36,852 nt of DNA from Clostridia bacterium (GTDB lineage: Bacteria > Bacillota > Clostridia > Oscillospirales > Acutalibacteraceae): positions 1-36,852 of the forward strand of contig JAGBFF010000089.1 of NCBI GenBank assembly GCA_017936615.1, given 5' to 3'. The notes under the pieces were generated by a model. It did not search any database. It was not told the origin of the DNA and saw only the letters and a program-made list of their open reading frames with translations. Made by a program: the position numbers and the translations under genes. This document shows positions 16,433-27,480 of the stretch, piece by piece; position 1 is the stretch's first letter; every line of letters begins with the position of its first letter.

Positions 16433-16470
16433 CAAAAAATCAAAAGGCCCGCAGCTTTCACTGCGGGCCT
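16433..16470 (-). terminator. Intrinsic terminator of the aro operon attenuator
   Basis: On the transcript, GGCCCGCAG pairs with CTGCGGGCC (9 bp, arms 16469-16461 and 16454-16446, loop TGAAAG) and is followed by UUUUGAUUUUUU (16445-16434). It lies between the leader peptide stop and aroF, so readthrough decides operon expression. Its left arm and loop contain GCAG-T-GAAAGC, which can instead pair with GCTTTC-TG-CTGC near the end of the leader peptide gene, forming an antiterminator. Confidence 0.93.
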
Positions 16471-16622: not shown

Positions 16623-16651
16623 ACTATAGCACACTAACGCGCTGTTGTCAA
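16623..16651 (-). promoter_or_regulatory. Sigma-A promoter of the aro operon
   Basis: Minus-strand TTGACA (16651-16646) and TATAGT (16628-16623) with exactly 17 bases between, a near-consensus promoter. Predicted start is near 16616, giving about 24 untranslated bases before the leader peptide ATG. A strong promoter fits control by attenuation rather than by initiation. Confidence 0.9.
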
Positions 16652-16659
16652 TAACAAAT

Positions 16660-19600
16660 TTACCAGATCGGGGTAACGATCTGATGGCTCGTGCTATCGG
16701 TCACCGAGTAGTAGTGCCGCAAAATCTGCACATAATTCCAGCCTTCCTCGTTGGCATACCCCACCGCGCCCATCTGGCTCAGGCCGACACCGTGACCCCA
16801 ACCCTGCGTAGTGATGGTCACTGTATCGGTGGACGCATCGTACGCAACGCGAAACGCGTGTGACCGCAGACCAAGCGCCTGACGGATGTTGTAACCCGTC
16901 AGCGGCTTCTTGTTGCCGCGCGCATCCACGTAGTAGAAATTGGTGTGGAACACAAAATTCCAAGCATCACCCGAGCCTGCCGTGCCGTCGCCGTCGTACG
17001 AAAGCACGCGAAGCGGTGCCACCCCGTCCTCAGCTTTAAACTGATCCTCCGGAACCACGTAGTTGCTGTGTTTGTCCAACACGTTTTTCTGCATCCACGC
17101 ACGGACCTCTTCGTATAACTCGGCACGGGTAAAGGTCAGCGTTGCCTCAAACTTACCCATACCTCCGTACTTGGCATAACTGGAGGCATTGTCGTATTTA
17201 CTGATCACACTCTTGGCATACGGAAGCGTGCCGCTCCACACCTTATTGCTGGATGCGGTATAGCCGCCGGTGGCAGCAAAATAGGAGGTTGAACAGAACT
17301 GCTTGGCGATGGTTGCCTTGGAGAGATCCAGCAGCTTAACACCAAGCACCTCGCCGACAGCATCGTAGATCTTTTTGTCGTTGGCAGAGTTCTTGATGTC
17401 CAGCGCCTTGAGCGAACAGGCGTACGGCTTGTTGTAATTCACGTTATACCACAAAATGTATGTATAGGACACGACCGCCTGTGCCTTCTGCGCTTCGGTG
17501 GAGTTCACCATCGTGGCCGCCGAGCCCAGCTCCGAATTGACGACCTGCGCCACCAACCGCTGCAGCTCCTCTTTGGTGGTGGGGCGAACGTACCCGTCCT
17601 CACCTTCAAGATCGTCCGTGGTGTTCGTGCTGATTTTCAGCACGAAATAACTCATCACATCATATTCCGACACCGTACCCTGCACCGTTCCCAACGCCGG
17701 CGGCGTGGGCGGTGTGACATCTGCGTTCGGAGGACGGGTCACCGTCGGACGAGGCATCGTGCTCGTGCTGCTCGACGTTGTTGTTTCACCGATCAACGAA
17801 TCCGGCTCCTCGTTAAGTGTCGTCTCGGTCGGCTTTTTTGTGGTCGTTGTGGTCGGTTTTTTTGTCGTTGTCGTCGTCGGCTTGGTCGAGTCCGGTGTAT
17901 TCGTTCCCGTCGTGGTCGACTCGGTCGTTGCATCGGAGCTCTGCATCTCCTGCCAGATCGACGGCATTAGCACCGTCTTGTTGAGACGCGCCTTGGAAAG
18001 GTCGTTCTCTTTATCCTCGTTCGCACGAACGCGTCGCGCCGCAACAACGATACGGGCATCGCTGAAGCTGTATTCGATCGGGGTGGTCAGCAGGAGCAGA
18101 TCGTCACCCTCCTGAATGTCCACCGGCGTGTCGAACAACGACCGCAGACGCAGCTGCGCCACATATTCCAAAAACGCCTCTTCGCTTTGGAACTCATCCA
18201 CCGTGAAGTCGAAGGCATCCTCCGATTCATCGCCGTCCTGCACCAATACCACCGCGAACACCTTATAGCTGTTTTCACGGTACAGCGTGCTGAAATCCAC
18301 GGTAGGATGCTCTTTCAAGTAGGCAAGCTCGGTATATCCCGCCAGATCTGAGAACATCTGTCCGCTTTGTGTATTGTTTCCGTAGATCACCAGCGACCGA
18401 TTCGACGTATGCGGCGTGATCACCGTGCCTGCTTCAACGTGCAGCGTACCGAAAATCGAGGTCTCCTCATAGAAATTACGGCCGTTGTAATATCCCTCCG
18501 ACGGGTTGATTACCACGGGATGGCTGATCGCGGTATCCTCCACGACCAACCAGCCGCGCACGTCATTGTTGATGCTGTACAAGCCGGTAAACTGCGACAG
18601 CATACTGTCCGGATATTTGACAGAACCCGGCTCAATATCCGCCAACCCCTGCCAATCCAAGCCTAGGCTGTAGATCTCGTTCAGATCCTTGATCTCCTGA
18701 TTATGCTGATGCGGACGCAGAAACAACGCGTAAACCGCCACGACCGCCGCCATCAGCAGCACCAGCAGCAGCGACAGCCATATCCAATGCCGTCCCCGCA
18801 TCGTGGGTGCCGGCTTGCGCGGTGAGGGTGCGATGGGCTGTTGCATTTTATCCAGCGGCTGTCCGCCCGCCATAACACCCGGATACGCCTCCAAATAGCG
18901 ACGCGTCATATCCAGTGCGTACAGCGTCGCCGCATTACGGATCTGCTCGCGGTCTTTCACTTCGCCGCCGGCAAAAATGCGTTTCGCCCACACACGGCGA
19001 TCATCCGCCAGTGCAACGTACACCGTACCGACCTCTTTCCCCTCGCTGGGATCAGGGCCGGCAACGCCGGTGATGCCGATACCGATATCCGCGCCGCCCA
19101 CACGGCGGGCACCCGCCGCCATCGCAGCGGCAACCTCAGGAGCTACCGTGCCCTGTGCTTCCAGCAGTGCTTCCGGCACACCGAGGACCTGCCGCTTGAT
19201 CTCCGGAGAATACGCGGCAATGCCGCACTCAAACACCTGCGACACGCCGGGAATCTCGGTCAATTTTCCGGAAAGCAGTCCCGCCGTGCAGGACTCCGCC
19301 GTTGCGATCTTCTTGTTGCGCTCTTTGAGCTGCTCCACAACGGTTTTCGCCAAGCCGCCGGTGTCCACGCCATACACGGCCGTACCCAACCGCTCGCGGA
19401 TCTCGTCGATCACGGGACGGCACAGTTCGTCCGCCGCGTCTTCATCTGCCGCCTTGGCAGTCACACGCAACTGGACCTCACCTTCCTTGGCATACGGCGC
19501 CACCGTGGGGTTCGCACTTTCCATCAGGTCGTGCAACCGCTCGTCGATCGCTGCTTCGGGAATACCGAACACGCCGATCGTGTGCGAACGGATCGTCTCA

Positions 19601-20118
19601 CCCGAAAACCGCTGCAAAAACGGCGCAACATACCCCAAAAACATCGGGGTCAGCTCCTTCGGCGGGCCGGGAAGTAAAATAACGCACTTCCCGTCCTTCT
19701 CTACGGCACATCCCGGGGCGGTACCGTGGTCGTTGGGAAATACGGTGCACCCCTCCGGGAGCATCGCCTGCTTGCGGTTGTTTTCGGTATATTCCTTACC
19801 GGTGCTACGGAAATACTCCTGAATGCGCACATCGCTTTCCTCGTGAAGCACCAACGGAATATCCAACGCTTTCGCAACCGTTTCACGTGTCAGGTCGTCC
19901 TCGGTCGGCCCAAGACCACCGGTAAGAATGACCATGTCGCAGCGCGACAACGCGAGTGACAGTGCGCATTCCAACCGCTCGCGGTTGTCGCCCACCGTTG
20001 ACTGATACAGCGTGTCGATGCCATACACCGCCAGCTCACGGGACAAAAACTGGCTATTGGAGTTGACAATATCCCCCAGCAACAGCTCCGTGCCGACAGT
20101 CAGTATTTCTGCGTTCAT
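16660..20118 (-). CDS. CinA - membrane segment - degenerate sortase - Thr-rich linker - SpoIID fusion protein
   Basis: A continuous 1152-residue reading frame. Residues 1-412 are full-length CinA (MoCF-like domain with TGGLGPTEDDLTRE; PncC nicotinamide-nucleotide amidase domain with ATAESCTAGLLSG and GITGVAGP). Residues 444-466 form one membrane helix. About 480-725 is a class B sortase fold whose catalytic His is Asn581 (YGNN for YGHN) and whose Cys is Pro680 (LLTTP for LSTC), with Arg689 kept. Residues 725-810 are a Thr/Pro-rich linker with a tandem TTTTTKKP repeat. Residues 811-1152 are SpoIID/LytB-like with candidate catalytic E863 and GWGHG at 1106-1110. The ATG at 20118 has AAAGGTGG upstream. 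CinA would lie in the cytoplasm, the rest outside. An internal ATG at 18873 with GGAGG 14 bases upstream could also yield the envelope part alone. A lost stop codon or assembly error cannot be excluded. Confidence 0.85.
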   Translation of the reverse strand: MNAEILTVGTELLLGDIVNSNSQFLSRELAVYGIDTLYQSTVGDNRERLECALSLALSRCDMVILTGGLGPTEDDLTRETVAKALDIPLVLHEESDVRIQEYFRSTGKEYTENNRKQAMLPEGCTVFPNDHGTAPGCAVEKDGKCVILLPGPPKELTPMFLGYVAPFLQRFSGETIRSHTIGVFGIPEAAIDERLHDLMESANPTVAPYAKEGEVQLRVTAKAADEDAADELCRPVIDEIRERLGTAVYGVDTGGLAKTVVEQLKERNKKIATAESCTAGLLSGKLTEIPGVSQVFECGIAAYSPEIKRQVLGVPEALLEAQGTVAPEVAAAMAAGARRVGGADIGIGITGVAGPDPSEGKEVGTVYVALADDRRVWAKRIFAGGEVKDREQIRNAATLYALDMTRRYLEAYPGVMAGGQPLDKMQQPIAPSPRKPAPTMRGRHWIWLSLLLVLLMAAVVAVYALFLRPHQHNQEIKDLNEIYSLGLDWQGLADIEPGSVKYPDSMLSQFTGLYSINNDVRGWLVVEDTAISHPVVINPSEGYYNGRNFYEETSIFGTLHVEAGTVITPHTSNRSLVIYGNNTQSGQMFSDLAGYTELAYLKEHPTVDFSTLYRENSYKVFAVVLVQDGDESEDAFDFTVDEFQSEEAFLEYVAQLRLRSLFDTPVDIQEGDDLLLLTTPIEYSFSDARIVVAARRVRANEDKENDLSKARLNKTVLMPSIWQEMQSSDATTESTTTGTNTPDSTKPTTTTTKKPTTTTTKKPTETTLNEEPDSLIGETTTSSSTSTMPRPTVTRPPNADVTPPTPPALGTVQGTVSEYDVMSYFVLKISTNTTDDLEGEDGYVRPTTKEELQRLVAQVVNSELGSAATMVNSTEAQKAQAVVSYTYILWYNVNYNKPYACSLKALDIKNSANDKKIYDAVGEVLGVKLLDLSKATIAKQFCSTSYFAATGGYTASSNKVWSGTLPYAKSVISKYDNASSYAKYGGMGKFEATLTFTRAELYEEVRAWMQKNVLDKHSNYVVPEDQFKAEDGVAPLRVLSYDGDGTAGSGDAWNFVFHTNFYYVDARGNKKPLTGYNIRQALGLRSHAFRVAYDASTDTVTITTQGWGHGVGLSQMGAVGYANEEGWNYVQILRHYYSVTDSTSHQIVTPIW
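17690..17946 (-). repeat. Thr/Pro-rich linker coding region with short tandem repeats
   Basis: Low-complexity coding DNA for residues about 725-810 of the CinA fusion. It contains two tandem KKPTTTTT-like units and many Thr codons; the plus strand shows repeated TTTTTTGT and GTCGTTGT blocks. It probably forms an extended wall-spanning spacer between the pseudosortase and SpoIID domains, and the repeat could vary in length by slippage. Confidence 0.7.
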
Positions 20119-20154: not shown

Positions 20155-21324
20155 TTACATGCGCTCCGTACGCACGCCGGCGATCGCCTCCGCGATCAGC
20201 TCATCAACCGGCAATTTCTGTTCCGCCTGCTCCAGCTCCTCCACGCGCGGACGCGTGCGCGGGTGGCGCGGCGTAAACACGGTACAGCAATCCTCATACG
20301 GCTGGATGGACGTCTCAAACGTACCGATCCGCCGCGCAATAGCTATAATTTCCTCTTTATCCATGCCGATGACCGGACGAAACACCGGCAACGTTGCCAC
20401 CGCGTCGGTGCATTGCAGCGCCCCGATCGTCTGACTGGCCACCTGTCCGACGCTCTCACCGGTGATAAGTGCACCGCACCCCTTTTCTTCGGCAATGCGT
20501 GATGCAATCTTCATCATAAACCGCCGCATGATAAGCGTAAACAGTTCCTCGGGACAGTGCCGCCCGATCTCCTCCTGAATATGCGTAAACGGCACGATGT
20601 ACAGCGTCGTGTGCCCCGCATACTCACCGACCTGCTGCAAGAGGGTCTTGACCTTCAGCTCGGCGCGCTCACTGGTGTACGGTGGTGATGCAAAATGCAC
20701 TGCGGCAAGTTCAATGCCGCGCTTGGCCATCATATACGCCGCCACCGGGGAATCGATGCCGCCGGACAGCAGGATCGCCGCTTTGCCACCGGTACCCACC
20801 GGCATACCGCCCGCACCGGGCAGCTGCGGCCCATGGATATACGCAGCAAAATCGCGGATCTCCACCCACACCGTAACCTCGGGATTGTGAACGTCTACCG
20901 ACAGGTGGGGATACACCTTCAACAGATGCTCCCCCACCTGCGCGCAGAGCTGCGGTGAGGTGAGAGGAAATCGCTTGTCCGCGCGCTTCGCCTCCACCTT
21001 GAAGGTTCTGGCGCGGCGCAGCGGCTGTTCCAGATAGGTCGTTACCGCGTGGACGATCGCCGACAGCTCCTTCTCCGTCACGCAAGCGCGCGAAAATGCC
21101 GAAATACCGAACACCTTGGCAACGCGGTCGCTGACCTCGTCCCAGTCCACCGTCTCGTCCTGCGGCTCGATATAAATGGTGGATTGCGCCTTGCGGAAAG
21201 TAAACAACCCCAACGGCTTGAGCCGCCACCGCAGGTTTTTGATGAGAACCTCCTCAAACGTACCGCGGTTAAGACCCTTTAGCGCCAATTCACCGTTTTT
21301 TATCAGGATAACTTCCTTTGCCAT
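20155..21324 (-). CDS. thiI: tRNA 4-thiouridine synthase ThiI
   Basis: Adenylates and thiolates U8 of tRNA using sulfur from a cysteine desulfurase, and in some bacteria also feeds thiamine synthesis. The 389 residues have an N-terminal ferredoxin-like region, a THUMP domain (about 60-165) and a PP-loop ATPase domain with SGGIDS at 187-192. There is no C-terminal rhodanese domain, as is usual in Firmicutes, so sulfur should come directly from the partner desulfurase encoded two genes upstream. The ATG at 21324 has AGGAG 7 bases upstream; the earlier in-frame start lies in the end of the sortase gene. Confidence 0.95.
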   Translation of the reverse strand: MAKEVILIKNGELALKGLNRGTFEEVLIKNLRWRLKPLGLFTFRKAQSTIYIEPQDETVDWDEVSDRVAKVFGISAFSRACVTEKELSAIVHAVTTYLEQPLRRARTFKVEAKRADKRFPLTSPQLCAQVGEHLLKVYPHLSVDVHNPEVTVWVEIRDFAAYIHGPQLPGAGGMPVGTGGKAAILLSGGIDSPVAAYMMAKRGIELAAVHFASPPYTSERAELKVKTLLQQVGEYAGHTTLYIVPFTHIQEEIGRHCPEELFTLIMRRFMMKIASRIAEEKGCGALITGESVGQVASQTIGALQCTDAVATLPVFRPVIGMDKEEIIAIARRIGTFETSIQPYEDCCTVFTPRHPRTRPRVEELEQAEQKLPVDELIAEAIAGVRTERM

Positions 21325-21344
21325 GCTGTTACTCCTTTGTCGGA

Positions 21345-22373
21345 TCACCGGTACTGCTCAGGCAGCTCCAGCTCCTGATTGACATACCACGCCTTCGGCA
21401 TCAGCACGTCCTTGTTGACTACTGTTTTGGATGCATCCACGTCCGCGCTTTCACCCTCGCGCAGCCGCCGTGCCACAACGATCGTGCGACCGTTTTTCAG
21501 CGTGGTATCCTTTTTGTTGCTGCAGGTGGACAGGGTAAGCAGCTGATCGTCCGCATTCACATCGACGTCGCCGAAATCGTACAGCGACCGCTCACGGATC
21601 TTGTCAACAAACGACGAGAACTGCGTGTCACTGCCGAACTCGGTACGAATATAGTTGAAAGCACCGGCACCGGTGGCATCCGCGTCGATCACCATAACGG
21701 CGAACACTTTATAAGTCACCTTTTCGCCGTAAGCGTTGTCCAGCGTCAGCGTTTCCAGCGTGCGCGCACGCTGCTCGTTCTGCGAAACCAGTAAATTGAA
21801 CTTGGAAAACATCAAGCCGCTCTTCAAATTGTGCCCATAGATCACGAGATTACGCTCCTCGTCAAATCGGGTCAGATCGTTCCGATAATCGAAAAACAGC
21901 GTCCCCGCTTTATCCTTATCTCCCAAAAAGTCGATATCCAGATACTTATCGTTGTCTGCGGCCTGCACCACCGGGTTATCAACCGTCCCCTCGAACAGAT
22001 CCTCCTGCCCCGTGGTTTTGAAGGTCAGCCACCCGGCAATATCGGGATTGCGGGCGTAGAGTGCCTTAAAGTTGCTCCCCAGTCCCTCTGGATACGCAAT
22101 ATCCTCGGGGATCTCATCGACATCCACACCGTCCGTCTCACCGCTGATGTACAGATCTCGCATGGAGCTGGTGACCTCCTGCGTGTGCTGCGGCTGAAGG
22201 TACAGCTCATCCATCAAATAATAACCGGAGCAAAGAAATACCGTGAGCGCCGTTAAAAAAGCTATCTTACGGATCCACTCCCGACGGCTGTCGCCGCGCA
22301 GCGGAACGACCGCCCGCAGCACACGCACGGCCCCACGCCCGATGATCTTTAACACGTTTTTCATTTGGTTCAT
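21345..22373 (-). CDS. srtB: Class B sortase
   Basis: Membrane-anchored transpeptidase that attaches sorting-signal proteins to peptidoglycan or pili. The 342 residues have one membrane helix (about 33-53) and a C-terminal sortase domain with an intact triad: H181 in LVIYGHN, C284 in TLSTC and R296 in NGRTIVVARR. It is clearly paralogous to the degenerate sortase inside the CinA fusion downstream, including the C-terminal NKxVLMPxxW tail. The ATG overlaps the desulfurase stop by 4 bases, with AGGAGG upstream. I see no sortase substrate with a sorting signal in this window. Confidence 0.92.
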   Translation of the reverse strand: MNQMKNVLKIIGRGAVRVLRAVVPLRGDSRREWIRKIAFLTALTVFLCSGYYLMDELYLQPQHTQEVTSSMRDLYISGETDGVDVDEIPEDIAYPEGLGSNFKALYARNPDIAGWLTFKTTGQEDLFEGTVDNPVVQAADNDKYLDIDFLGDKDKAGTLFFDYRNDLTRFDEERNLVIYGHNLKSGLMFSKFNLLVSQNEQRARTLETLTLDNAYGEKVTYKVFAVMVIDADATGAGAFNYIRTEFGSDTQFSSFVDKIRERSLYDFGDVDVNADDQLLTLSTCSNKKDTTLKNGRTIVVARRLREGESADVDASKTVVNKDVLMPKAWYVNQELELPEQYR

Positions 22374-23503
22374 GTGCGCCTCCTTTGCAGCGTTGCCGCT
22401 GCGTCCCGCAAAGCCTGTGCCAGCGCCCGCACCTCATCCTCTGTGTTTTGATAGCAAAAACTGATCCGCAGCGACGAATCGATCTCCGCTGCAGGCAGCC
22501 CCATCGCCTCCAGCACCGCGCTGTGCTGCCCTTTGGAGCAGGCAGAGCCGGACGAAACGTAGATCTCCCGTGCCGCCAAAAAATGCAGCAGCGTTTCGCT
22601 GCGAATACCGGGGATCGACAAATGCACGATATACGGTACACCTCCCGGCGGCAGATGCCACCGTACCTCCGGCAGCGTCTGCAGCTCGGCAATCAACGTC
22701 TCCCGCAGTACCGTGTAATGTGCTTGCTGTGCATCCACCGACGGAACGGCGGCAGCCGCCGCGCCGAAGCCAACGATCGCCGGCACCGCCTCGGTGCCGC
22801 TGCGAAGCCCCTTTTCCTGCCCACCGCCAAGCATACGCGGCAGCAGGCGAACACCCTTGCGGACGTACAGAGCGCCGCACCCTTTCGGCCCGTGCAGCTT
22901 ATGCGCACTGACCGACATAAGATCCACACCCCAGCGTTCCGCTTTCAGCAGTAGCTTACCCGCCGCCTGCACGCAATCGGTATGGAACACCGCCTGCGGA
23001 GCGCGCTCCTTGACCGCGTCGACCATGGCGGGAATATCAAACCGTGCGCCGGTCTCGTTGTTGACCGCCATCACGCTGACAAGGGTCGTATCTGCCGTGC
23101 AGGCTGCCGCCAATCGTTCCGGCGAGATAGTGCCGTCCGCAGCAGGTTTAACACGAGTAACAGTCCATCCCTGGTGTTCCAGTTCGTCGAAGCACGCTGC
23201 AACAGACGGGTGCTCCACTGCGGTGGTGACCGCCACAGGAGGGCGCCGCCGCAACGCAGCCGCGGTGCCTAAAATTGCCAGATTGTTCGCCTCTGTGCCG
23301 CTGCCGGTAAAGGTGATCTGCTCCGGCTTGGCTCCCATCAGCGCCGCCACCTCCGCGCGTGCCTGCGCGACCTCCTGCTCAGCACGCACACCCATCGTGT
23401 GCAAAGAGGACGGATTACCGTACACCTCGGTCATCACGCGCATCATACGCGCGACGGACGCTTCGCACACCGCGGTAGTCGCACTGTTATCGAAATACGC
23501 CAT
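22370..23503 (-). CDS. Cysteine desulfurase (NifS/IscS family)
   Basis: A PLP enzyme that moves sulfur from cysteine to an active-site cysteine persulfide. The 377 residues begin AYFDNSATT after Met and contain the PLP lysine K202 (SAHKLHGPKG) and the catalytic loop cysteine C322 (SSGSACSKGQ), typical of group I enzymes. With thiI in the same operon it probably supplies sulfur for tRNA s4U8. The start at 23503 has GGAGAGG 6 bases upstream; the ATG at 23509 would abut the site. Whether it also serves Fe-S assembly is open. Confidence 0.93.
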   Translation of the reverse strand: MAYFDNSATTAVCEASVARMMRVMTEVYGNPSSLHTMGVRAEQEVAQARAEVAALMGAKPEQITFTGSGTEANNLAILGTAAALRRRPPVAVTTAVEHPSVAACFDELEHQGWTVTRVKPAADGTISPERLAAACTADTTLVSVMAVNNETGARFDIPAMVDAVKERAPQAVFHTDCVQAAGKLLLKAERWGVDLMSVSAHKLHGPKGCGALYVRKGVRLLPRMLGGGQEKGLRSGTEAVPAIVGFGAAAAAVPSVDAQQAHYTVLRETLIAELQTLPEVRWHLPPGGVPYIVHLSIPGIRSETLLHFLAAREIYVSSGSACSKGQHSAVLEAMGLPAAEIDSSLRISFCYQNTEDEVRALAQALRDAAATLQRRRT

Positions 23504-23555
23504 GCCCATCCTCTCCCTTCTGCCAAACAGCAACACTTTCCTTTTTAACTAATGT

Positions 23556-23584
23556 ATTATAGCATATTATCCCCCAAGTTACAA
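23556..23584 (-). promoter_or_regulatory. Sigma-A promoter of the desulfurase-sortase-thiI-cinA operon
   Basis: Minus-strand TTGTAA (23584-23579), a 17-base spacer and consensus TATAAT (23561-23556). It drives the operon starting at 23503. Confidence 0.85.
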
Positions 23585-27274: not shown

Positions 27275-27309
27275 AAAAACACAAAAGTACACCGATCGAT
27301 CCGGTGGTG

Positions 27310-27480
27310 TTGCCTTTGTCCTTTTGCCTGAGAGATTCACGCTGTCACACGCTTTGCCCCTTCGGCCCTCGGCTTCCACCGAGCGTCTCCAAAGTCCTAT
27401 CTGCATTACAGTCCTCATCCGTTGCCGGACACCTGAGAGTGTTGCTCCTTCGGTTGCGGTTCTCCCGCATTTCCTGCAAG
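27310..27480 (-). ncRNA. Tandem glycine riboswitch
   Basis: Two consecutive glycine aptamers on the minus strand. Aptamer 1 (about 27400-27480) has GGGAGA, CCGAAGGAGCAA and CTCTCAGG. Aptamer 2 (about 27310-27395) has GGAGACGC, CCGAAGGGGCAAA and AATCTCTCAGGCAAAAGGAC, the most conserved signature of the class. It is followed by a terminator and then the AGCS gene. The class usually turns genes on to degrade glycine; for importers the sign of control can be off, and I cannot decide it from sequence alone. Confidence 0.93.

Follow-up and report, generated by a model that had tools for sequence, protein, structure and literature searches.

CinA fused in frame to a sortase fold without catalytic His and Cys and to a SpoIID/LytB domain in the Acutalibacteraceae

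INTRODUCTION

Why would an enzyme of cytoplasmic nucleotide metabolism be built into the same polypeptide as domains of the wall-associated kind? The question is raised by a gene on the minus strand, at 16660..20118, of contig JAGBFF010000089.1 (assembly GCA_017936615.1, a Clostridia bacterium of the family Acutalibacteraceae); the window, by which we mean the whole stretch of DNA that was analyzed, is 36,852 nucleotides long. The original prediction saw here a CinA protein running in frame into a membrane segment, a sortase fold and a SpoIID/LytB domain, and knew of no described protein so built. We found that this frame is real and recurs in related genomes, that its sortase fold lacks the catalytic His and Cys, and that such sortases are systematically paired with active ones; we tentatively favor a tethered wall-remodeling module over a tolerated fusion of operon neighbors. 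No description of the CinA-sortase-SpoIID architecture was found in the open-access papers searched, in line with the original impression, and, judged by titles and the beginnings of abstracts, no CinA-sortase protein is described there; nor did we find an occurrence of the term "pseudosortase" in it.

RESULTS

One frame joins CinA to a wall-associated part

The gene reads from an ATG at 20118 to a stop at 16660, giving 1152 uninterrupted codons on the minus strand; the plus-strand reading of 16660-20118 is interrupted by stops. From the N to the C terminus the product consists of CinA, one membrane helix, a class B sortase fold, a threonine-rich linker and SpoIID/LytB, as follows.

16660..20118, minus strand: whole fused frame, 1152 amino acids, predicted to be about 125 kDa (open frame, profile matches, same architecture in relatives)
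19609..20118, minus strand: COG1058/MoCF domain (residues 1-170), adenosine diphosphate ribose (ADP-ribose) pyrophosphatase type, with TGGLGPTEDD and LPGPP kept
19369..19587, minus strand: CinA KH domain (residues 178-250), from Pfam
18892..19353, minus strand: PncC domain, a nicotinamide mononucleotide (NMN) deamidase (residues 256-409), with ESCTAG 275-280, Tyr303, Lys308 and Thr350 kept
18718..18786, minus strand: transmembrane helix (residues about 445-467), a single strongly hydrophobic stretch preceded by a Lys/Arg-rich segment
18025..18612, minus strand: class B sortase fold without the catalytic His and Cys, with Arg689 kept
17686..17940, minus strand: Thr-rich low-complexity linker (residues 727-811), likely wall spanning, judged from its sequence and variable in relatives
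16690..17568, minus strand: SpoIID/LytB domain (residues about 851-1143), with E863 at 17530-17532 and GWGHG (1106-1110) at 16789-16803

The in-frame joining of a cytoplasmic NMN deamidase to an extracellular wall-associated part is thus supported as claimed, and E863 and GWGHG lie exactly where the original prediction had placed them. By the positive-inside rule, the basic segment ahead of the helix predicts that CinA lies inside the cell and the remainder of the protein outside.

The CinA assignment is carried by the NCBIfam equivalog PRK00549, which scores 505.9 bits over residues 1-410 against a cut-off of 379, and the Pfam models MoCF, CinA_KH and CinA each exceed their cut-offs. The best solved relatives of residues 1-412 are the CinA chains 6mr3 and then 4cta, 4uux and 4ct8, the 4ct8 group being, we presume, the CinA of Thermus thermophilus (TtCinA). 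This part of the fused protein is apparently intact, and enzyme activity is predicted for it. According to PMC4246079, TtCinA is a bifunctional NMN deamidase and ADP-ribose pyrophosphatase that is dimeric in the crystal and in solution. The fused protein shares all three of its domains and, with residue roles taken from that paper and transferred by motif spacing, its NMN-deamidase Lys, Tyr and Thr, here K308, Y303 and T350; in contrast, TtCinA has neither a membrane helix nor an ectodomain. A survey of NMN deamidases mentions N-terminal extensions and the occasional attachment of other domains to CinA, but the part of PMC3855486 available to us describes no sortase or SpoIID partner.

The PncC domain of the fused gene is the sole PF02464 match in the source genome (G000). 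PncC was single copy in all 28 genomes tested, so that those of them with the fusion showed no PncC beyond the fused one, several of these genomes being incomplete. The NMN-deamidase motifs are retained in 53 of 53 CinA-sortase and CinA-sortase-SpoIID rows, and 4 of the 12 three-part proteins no longer have the COG1058 motif. Five CinA-sortase fusions (L149, L151, L154, L168 and L170) keep PncC without a COG1058 domain; their sortase is dead and no SpoIID follows in frame.

The sortase-like stretch (residues 451-692) scores 97.9 bits with TIGR03064, under the cut-off of 153.75, and so does, with 140.4 bits, the catalytically complete SrtB (P0002) encoded in the same gene cluster. The stretch aligns with Clostridioides difficile SrtB (4ux7/5gyj; PMC5118464) across 183 residues with the catalytic Arg kept; it differs from that enzyme in its position between CinA and SpoIID and in having lost the other two catalytic residues. 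The His position is occupied by Asn581 (18376-18378, in IYGNN) and the Cys position by Pro680 (18079-18081, in LLTTPIE) in the multiple alignment, or by Pro or Ile (Ile681 in one case) in the pairwise alignments, and there is no Cys at 676-682. On these substitutions the fused sortase is catalytically dead, a sortase fold but not a working sortase; the predicted fold stands, and its dead state is new relative to the original prediction.

At the C terminus, where the profile matches cover residues 855-1140, TIGR02669 (SpoIID/LytB) scores 95.0 bits against a cut-off of 83.3, and the Pfam SpoIID model is slightly under its own (20.8 against 23). The domain resembles the SpoIID lytic transglycosylase (4rwr, 5i1t and 5txu; PMC6221140) in its assignment to SpoIID/LytB, the catalytic-column Glu and GxGHG, but it is joined to CinA and a sortase fold, has four extra residues after the Glu and is not the sporulation ortholog, as TIGR02870 (stage II sporulation protein D) gives 86.7 bits against a cut-off of 234.75. 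Across the module, the catalytic-column Glu is retained in 42 of 42 rows and GxGHG in 38 of 42 when printed rows are read by eye (35 by a narrower regular expression).

The fused frame recurs in related genomes

A search of related genomes for the same architecture returned 11 other distinct loci (L002, L003, L004, L005, L079, L112, L114, L117, L118, L119 and L163), making 12 with the window; a scan of genome contigs had given 80 loci, 5 of them (L002 to L005 and L079) with the whole architecture in one frame. Aligned over its whole length, the window protein is 72% identical to that of L002, 59% to L003, 57% to L004, 52% to L005 and 51% to L079. The fused frame is present in both same-genus genomes searched (G023 and G150) and in other genera besides, and this rejects the suggestion of a recent stop-codon loss between operon neighbors. 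Separate neighboring genes, which the original prediction would have expected throughout if the join were spurious, do exist, as the unfused state of other lineages. The fused architecture occurs in genomes assembled from metagenomes of sheep, yak, goat and other samples, and all five titled genomes that carry the fused gene come from metagenome assembly.

In a survey of 200 genomes of the family, the source genome included, 60 loci besides that of the window were selected because the match lay in a long open frame; only part of these frames were fetched, so that the counts are lower bounds. PncC, sortase and SpoIID share a single frame in 10 of the 61 loci, PncC and sortase do so in 42 (six of them cut by contig ends) and neither combination occurs in 9, so that an NMN-deamidase domain is joined to a sortase fold in at least 52 of the 200 genomes. 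By contrast, a set from the same family with CinA frames of ordinary length was unfused in 20 of 20 loci, with a sortase gene beside cinA in 11 and a SpoIID protein bearing a CinA remnant in 5. In other families of the order, a sortase lay beside cinA in 1 of 20 loci and SpoIID in none; L189 has cinA, srtB and a spoIID-like gene as unfused neighbors 15 and 25 bases apart, and L185 to L188 are CinA-sortase fusions, followed in L185 by a separate SpoIID gene. In some other genomes CinA is joined to an active sortase. Outside the order, no open CinA frame of more than 540 codons was present among the matches listed for 341 genomes of the class.

SpoIID/LytB matches occur in 179 of the 200 family genomes, so the domain itself is not special to the module. 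Separately, five proteins (L217:7445-9838, L211, L212, L213 and L214, the fetched stretch ending within three of them) have an apparently circularly permuted SpoIID, with the GxGHG end placed ahead of the part bearing the catalytic Glu in all five; no description of a circular permutation of SpoIID was found in the open-access papers searched.

Between the window and L002, the ratio of nonsynonymous to synonymous substitution rates (dN/dS) ranged from 0.08 to 0.27 over all seven segments measured, with 0.08-0.10 for the CinA domains, 0.18 for the dead sortase, 0.15 for SpoIID and 0.23-0.27 for the linkers, values that are rough because synonymous sites are near saturation and several L003 values were not computable.

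Trees point to more than one origin of the three-part join

In the CinA tree, 11 of the 12 three-part loci (all but L163) form one clade with L091 and L149 (support, 100), and in the SpoIID tree the same set, again without L163, is one clade together with L161 (support, 99); L091 and L161 are cut by a contig end, and L149 has CinA and a dead sortase with no in-frame SpoIID. Thirteen canonical sporulation SpoIIDs form a group of their own (95), with the fused SpoIID outside it. The sortase tree (95 rows), made by a quick method without bootstrap, places 37 rows, all dead, in one group (support, 96), and it mixes dead sortases lacking SpoIID among the SpoIID-attached ones. With the approximately unbiased test, a single origin of all 12 three-part fusions is rejected on the SpoIID domain (P = 0.0035) and not rejected on the sortase domain (P = 0.097), and the 30 SpoIID-attached sortases other than L163 as a clade by themselves give P = 0.048, all of these being softer than they look because the groups were defined with the first trees already in view. 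By the result on the SpoIID domain, the three-part join probably has two or more origins.

A juxtamembrane "PWKGD"-like motif was considered as a marker of the history of the join and set aside as too patchy; by a rough regular expression it occurs in 24 of 43 CinA-sortase, 7 of 27 standalone, 0 of 16 sortase-SpoIID and 5 of 12 three-part proteins.

Dead sortases accompany active ones

The fused gene is the last of a tight same-strand cluster whose other members, overlapping one another by 4 bases, are listed here.

22370..23536, minus strand: cysteine desulfurase, NifS/IscS-like, which opens the cluster (its top-scoring model, TIGR03402, stays under the cut-off)
21345..22373, minus strand: srtB (P0002), 342 amino acids, with His, Cys (TLSTC) and Arg all present, two genes upstream of the fused gene
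20155..21348, minus strand: thiI, between srtB and the fused gene (TIGR00342, 374 bits against a cut-off of 264.5)

In the source genome, the fused sortase and P0002 are the only two matches to the SrtB model. The genomes of the window clade have exactly two class B sortase matches in 9 of 10 cases and three in G096; the standalone sortase was read in 8 of the 10 (all but G068 and G088) and keeps His, Cys and Arg in each. Over the 105 sortase domains surveyed, His or Cys is lost in 38 of 39 SpoIID-attached domains (8 of the 38, every one Gemmiger-like, align over the second half of the domain alone and leave the His column empty), both are kept in 22 of 26 standalone sortases, and 30 of 40 CinA-attached sortases without SpoIID are intact. 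Only the SpoIID-attached sortase of L163 is intact, with His, Cys and Arg in place, and the genome concerned, G061 (84% complete), yields one SrtB match, which lies inside the fused protein; the exception fits the active/dead pairing.

Standalone sortase folds without His and Cys were seen at L141:6112-7047, L150:3739-4710, L166:3945-5363 and L167:8333-10333, where the locus contains, in addition, a sortase retaining the two residues, so that active/dead pairing occurs also without SpoIID.

CinA remnants on SpoIID proteins

In many relatives, a second gene encodes a sortase-SpoIID protein with a long cytoplasmic N-terminal part, and this part matches the CinA profile with an hhalign probability of 90-99 in 9 of 13 groups, the contig-cut L161 lying outside the comparison. 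Five SpoIID proteins of unfused family loci, which have no sortase part, gave together a CinA match of 99.1 over 314 columns. According to these matches, the SpoIID partner repeatedly carries a CinA, whether real or degenerate, and by analogy with dimeric TtCinA a pairing of real with degenerate CinA would be an attractive idea.

In Gemmiger and its relatives, a normal cinA adjoins a gene for a protein of 1113-1215 amino acids that combines a degenerate remnant of CinA KH-PncC with a membrane helix and SpoIID, at all 11 loci (L030, L034, L043, L048, L050, L053, L056, L058, L059, L061 and L067; L053 and L061 are from Gemmiger formicilis strains). A faint sortase remnant is present in 7 of the 11 and was also seen in L030.

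Signals around the cluster and elsewhere in the window

23556..23584, minus strand: promoter-like site matching 10/12 consensus positions, about 20 bases upstream of the desulfurase start
16662..16685, minus strand: terminator-like hairpin overlapping the end of the fused frame
16623-16651, minus strand: strong promoter-like site (11/12, with TG ahead of the second hexamer), lying between the fused gene and that for 3-deoxy-D-arabino-heptulosonate 7-phosphate (DAHP) synthase
16445-16470, minus strand: G+C-rich hairpin with a T run just before the DAHP synthase gene, attenuator-like
27306-27402, minus strand: aptamer of a glycine riboswitch, scoring 58.3 bits
4298-4380, minus strand: ribosomal protein leader of the S10-Clostridia type, scoring 51.3 bits

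The site upstream of the desulfurase is weak evidence for a promoter, because the region holds three such sites against a shuffled mean of 3.3. Terminator-like hairpins number 15 in the region, the one at 16662..16685 included, against a shuffled mean of 7.7.

DISCUSSION

Our preferred reading, held tentatively and at somewhat less than an even chance, is that the fused protein is a tethered wall-remodeling module with CinA as its base and a dead sortase that docks beside the active SrtB. It would be a single-pass membrane protein with a cytoplasmic N terminus, serving as a tethered glycan-cutting arm, and catalytic sorting would fall to the separate SrtB of the same cluster. The dead sortase might dock or position SrtB, its sorting substrates or the lipid-linked wall precursor, the Thr-rich linker would let the SpoIID domain reach glycan strands, and a CinA dimer could hold two such arms together, meanwhile doing housekeeping NAD (nicotinamide adenine dinucleotide) salvage. 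We think it unlikely, yet worth stating, that CinA is moreover a transmembrane sensor in which binding or turnover of NMN or ADP-ribose alters an asymmetric dimer and so gates the SpoIID domain guided by the dead sortase. NMN is a by-product of NAD-dependent DNA ligation, and through such a sensor the opening of the wall and the anchoring of surface proteins would be coupled to NAD turnover and DNA replication.

In favor of the module we count the age and conservation of the three-part frame, the retained PncC motifs and SpoIID Glu, the single-copy PncC, the pairing of active and dead sortases together with its fitting exception in G061, the unfused neighbors of L189 and the joins of CinA to an active sortase, the degenerate CinA on SpoIID partners, the presence of sporulation SpoIID and SpoIIP as genes of their own and the dimeric state of TtCinA. 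Several observations weigh against a tethered module. CinA may be retained simply because the cell needs CinA, and the CinA remnant is missing in 3 of the 13 sortase-SpoIID groups and reaches only 73.6 in another. In 12 of 12 rows of the window clade, four extra residues stand between E863 and EAxKAQ, an insertion absent from the other readable rows that may impair SpoIID catalysis. L163 falls on the sporulation side of the SpoIID tree, so that more than one SpoIID is present among the three-part proteins. Moreover, 10 of 40 CinA-attached sortases without SpoIID are dead as well (two of these rows being contig cut) and five dead rows fall outside the dead group of the sortase tree, and loss of catalysis is therefore confined neither to SpoIID attachment nor to a single event. 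At the Gemmiger loci, to which that search was restricted, no adjoining gene encodes an active sortase.

The main rival, a real possibility though one that we would sooner doubt than accept, is that srtB and spoIID-like genes settled beside an old desulfurase-thiI-cinA cluster and became joined to it without consequence, CinA working as usual, merely tethered and with no functional link to the wall. Loss of the stop codon could well have been harmless, because the sortase begins with a cytoplasmic tail and a membrane helix and the C terminus of CinA is free. Such a history would suit the loci of other families of the order, where thiI lies near cinA in 13 of 20 and a sortase in 1 of 20, as well as L123 and L142, in which cinA and srt are still separate, 3 and 12 bases apart. 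It would likewise suit interdomain linkers that vary freely and the retention of PncC beside the loss of the COG1058 motif in a minority of the three-part proteins, which is expected if only housekeeping is selected. It sits less easily with the persistence of degenerate CinA on SpoIID proteins, where a housekeeping need is unlikely, with the joining of CinA to an active sortase, to a dead sortase-SpoIID and in other families, and with the systematic pairing of active and dead sortases; we favor the tethered module over it.

The remaining explanations are less probable still. The long frame might not be the working product, being cleaved or having its outer half made also from an internal start near residue 416 (MAGG), which would give soluble CinA and a membrane sortase-SpoIID. 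M416-A-G-G is kept in 11 of 13 rows amid an otherwise variable linker and the window has GGAGG 14 bases upstream, but the Met is Leu in L118 and L163, GGAGG is present in only 4 of 13 rows and its spacing is long, so that the start at 416 was rejected as not conserved; no processing site was identified, no systematic search for one having been made, and on balance we consider this explanation quite improbable. A role of the fused SpoIID with SpoIIP in engulfment is very improbable. The source genome does encode SpoIVA and SpoIIP, the latter as a separate gene, but it also encodes a separate full-length SpoIID above cut-off, which together with the separate tree group of the canonical proteins rules out identity with the sporulation SpoIID, and a relative of the module is carried by Gemmiger. 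Gemmiger is not known for spores. An assembly or sequencing artifact, or a chimeric contig, might be suspected in a draft genome of 98 contigs that is 83% complete; the presence of the same architecture in relatives, including the same genus and the sheep, yak and goat genomes, and purifying selection on both sides of the join rule out both this and a recent stop loss, and leave to such an error a chance that is close to nil.

Our findings present what is apparently the sole copy of a pyridine-nucleotide salvage enzyme as covalently tied to the wall, by a link that evolved more than once. They also offer sortase biology a natural pair of active and dead enzymes, in which the SpoIID-attached member is nearly always dead and the standalone member mostly active. 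If the link is not functional, this would be a clear case of repeated tolerated fusion and pseudoenzyme retention; if it is functional, it would represent an unrecognized route from the cytoplasmic nucleotide state to peptidoglycan remodeling in gut bacteria.

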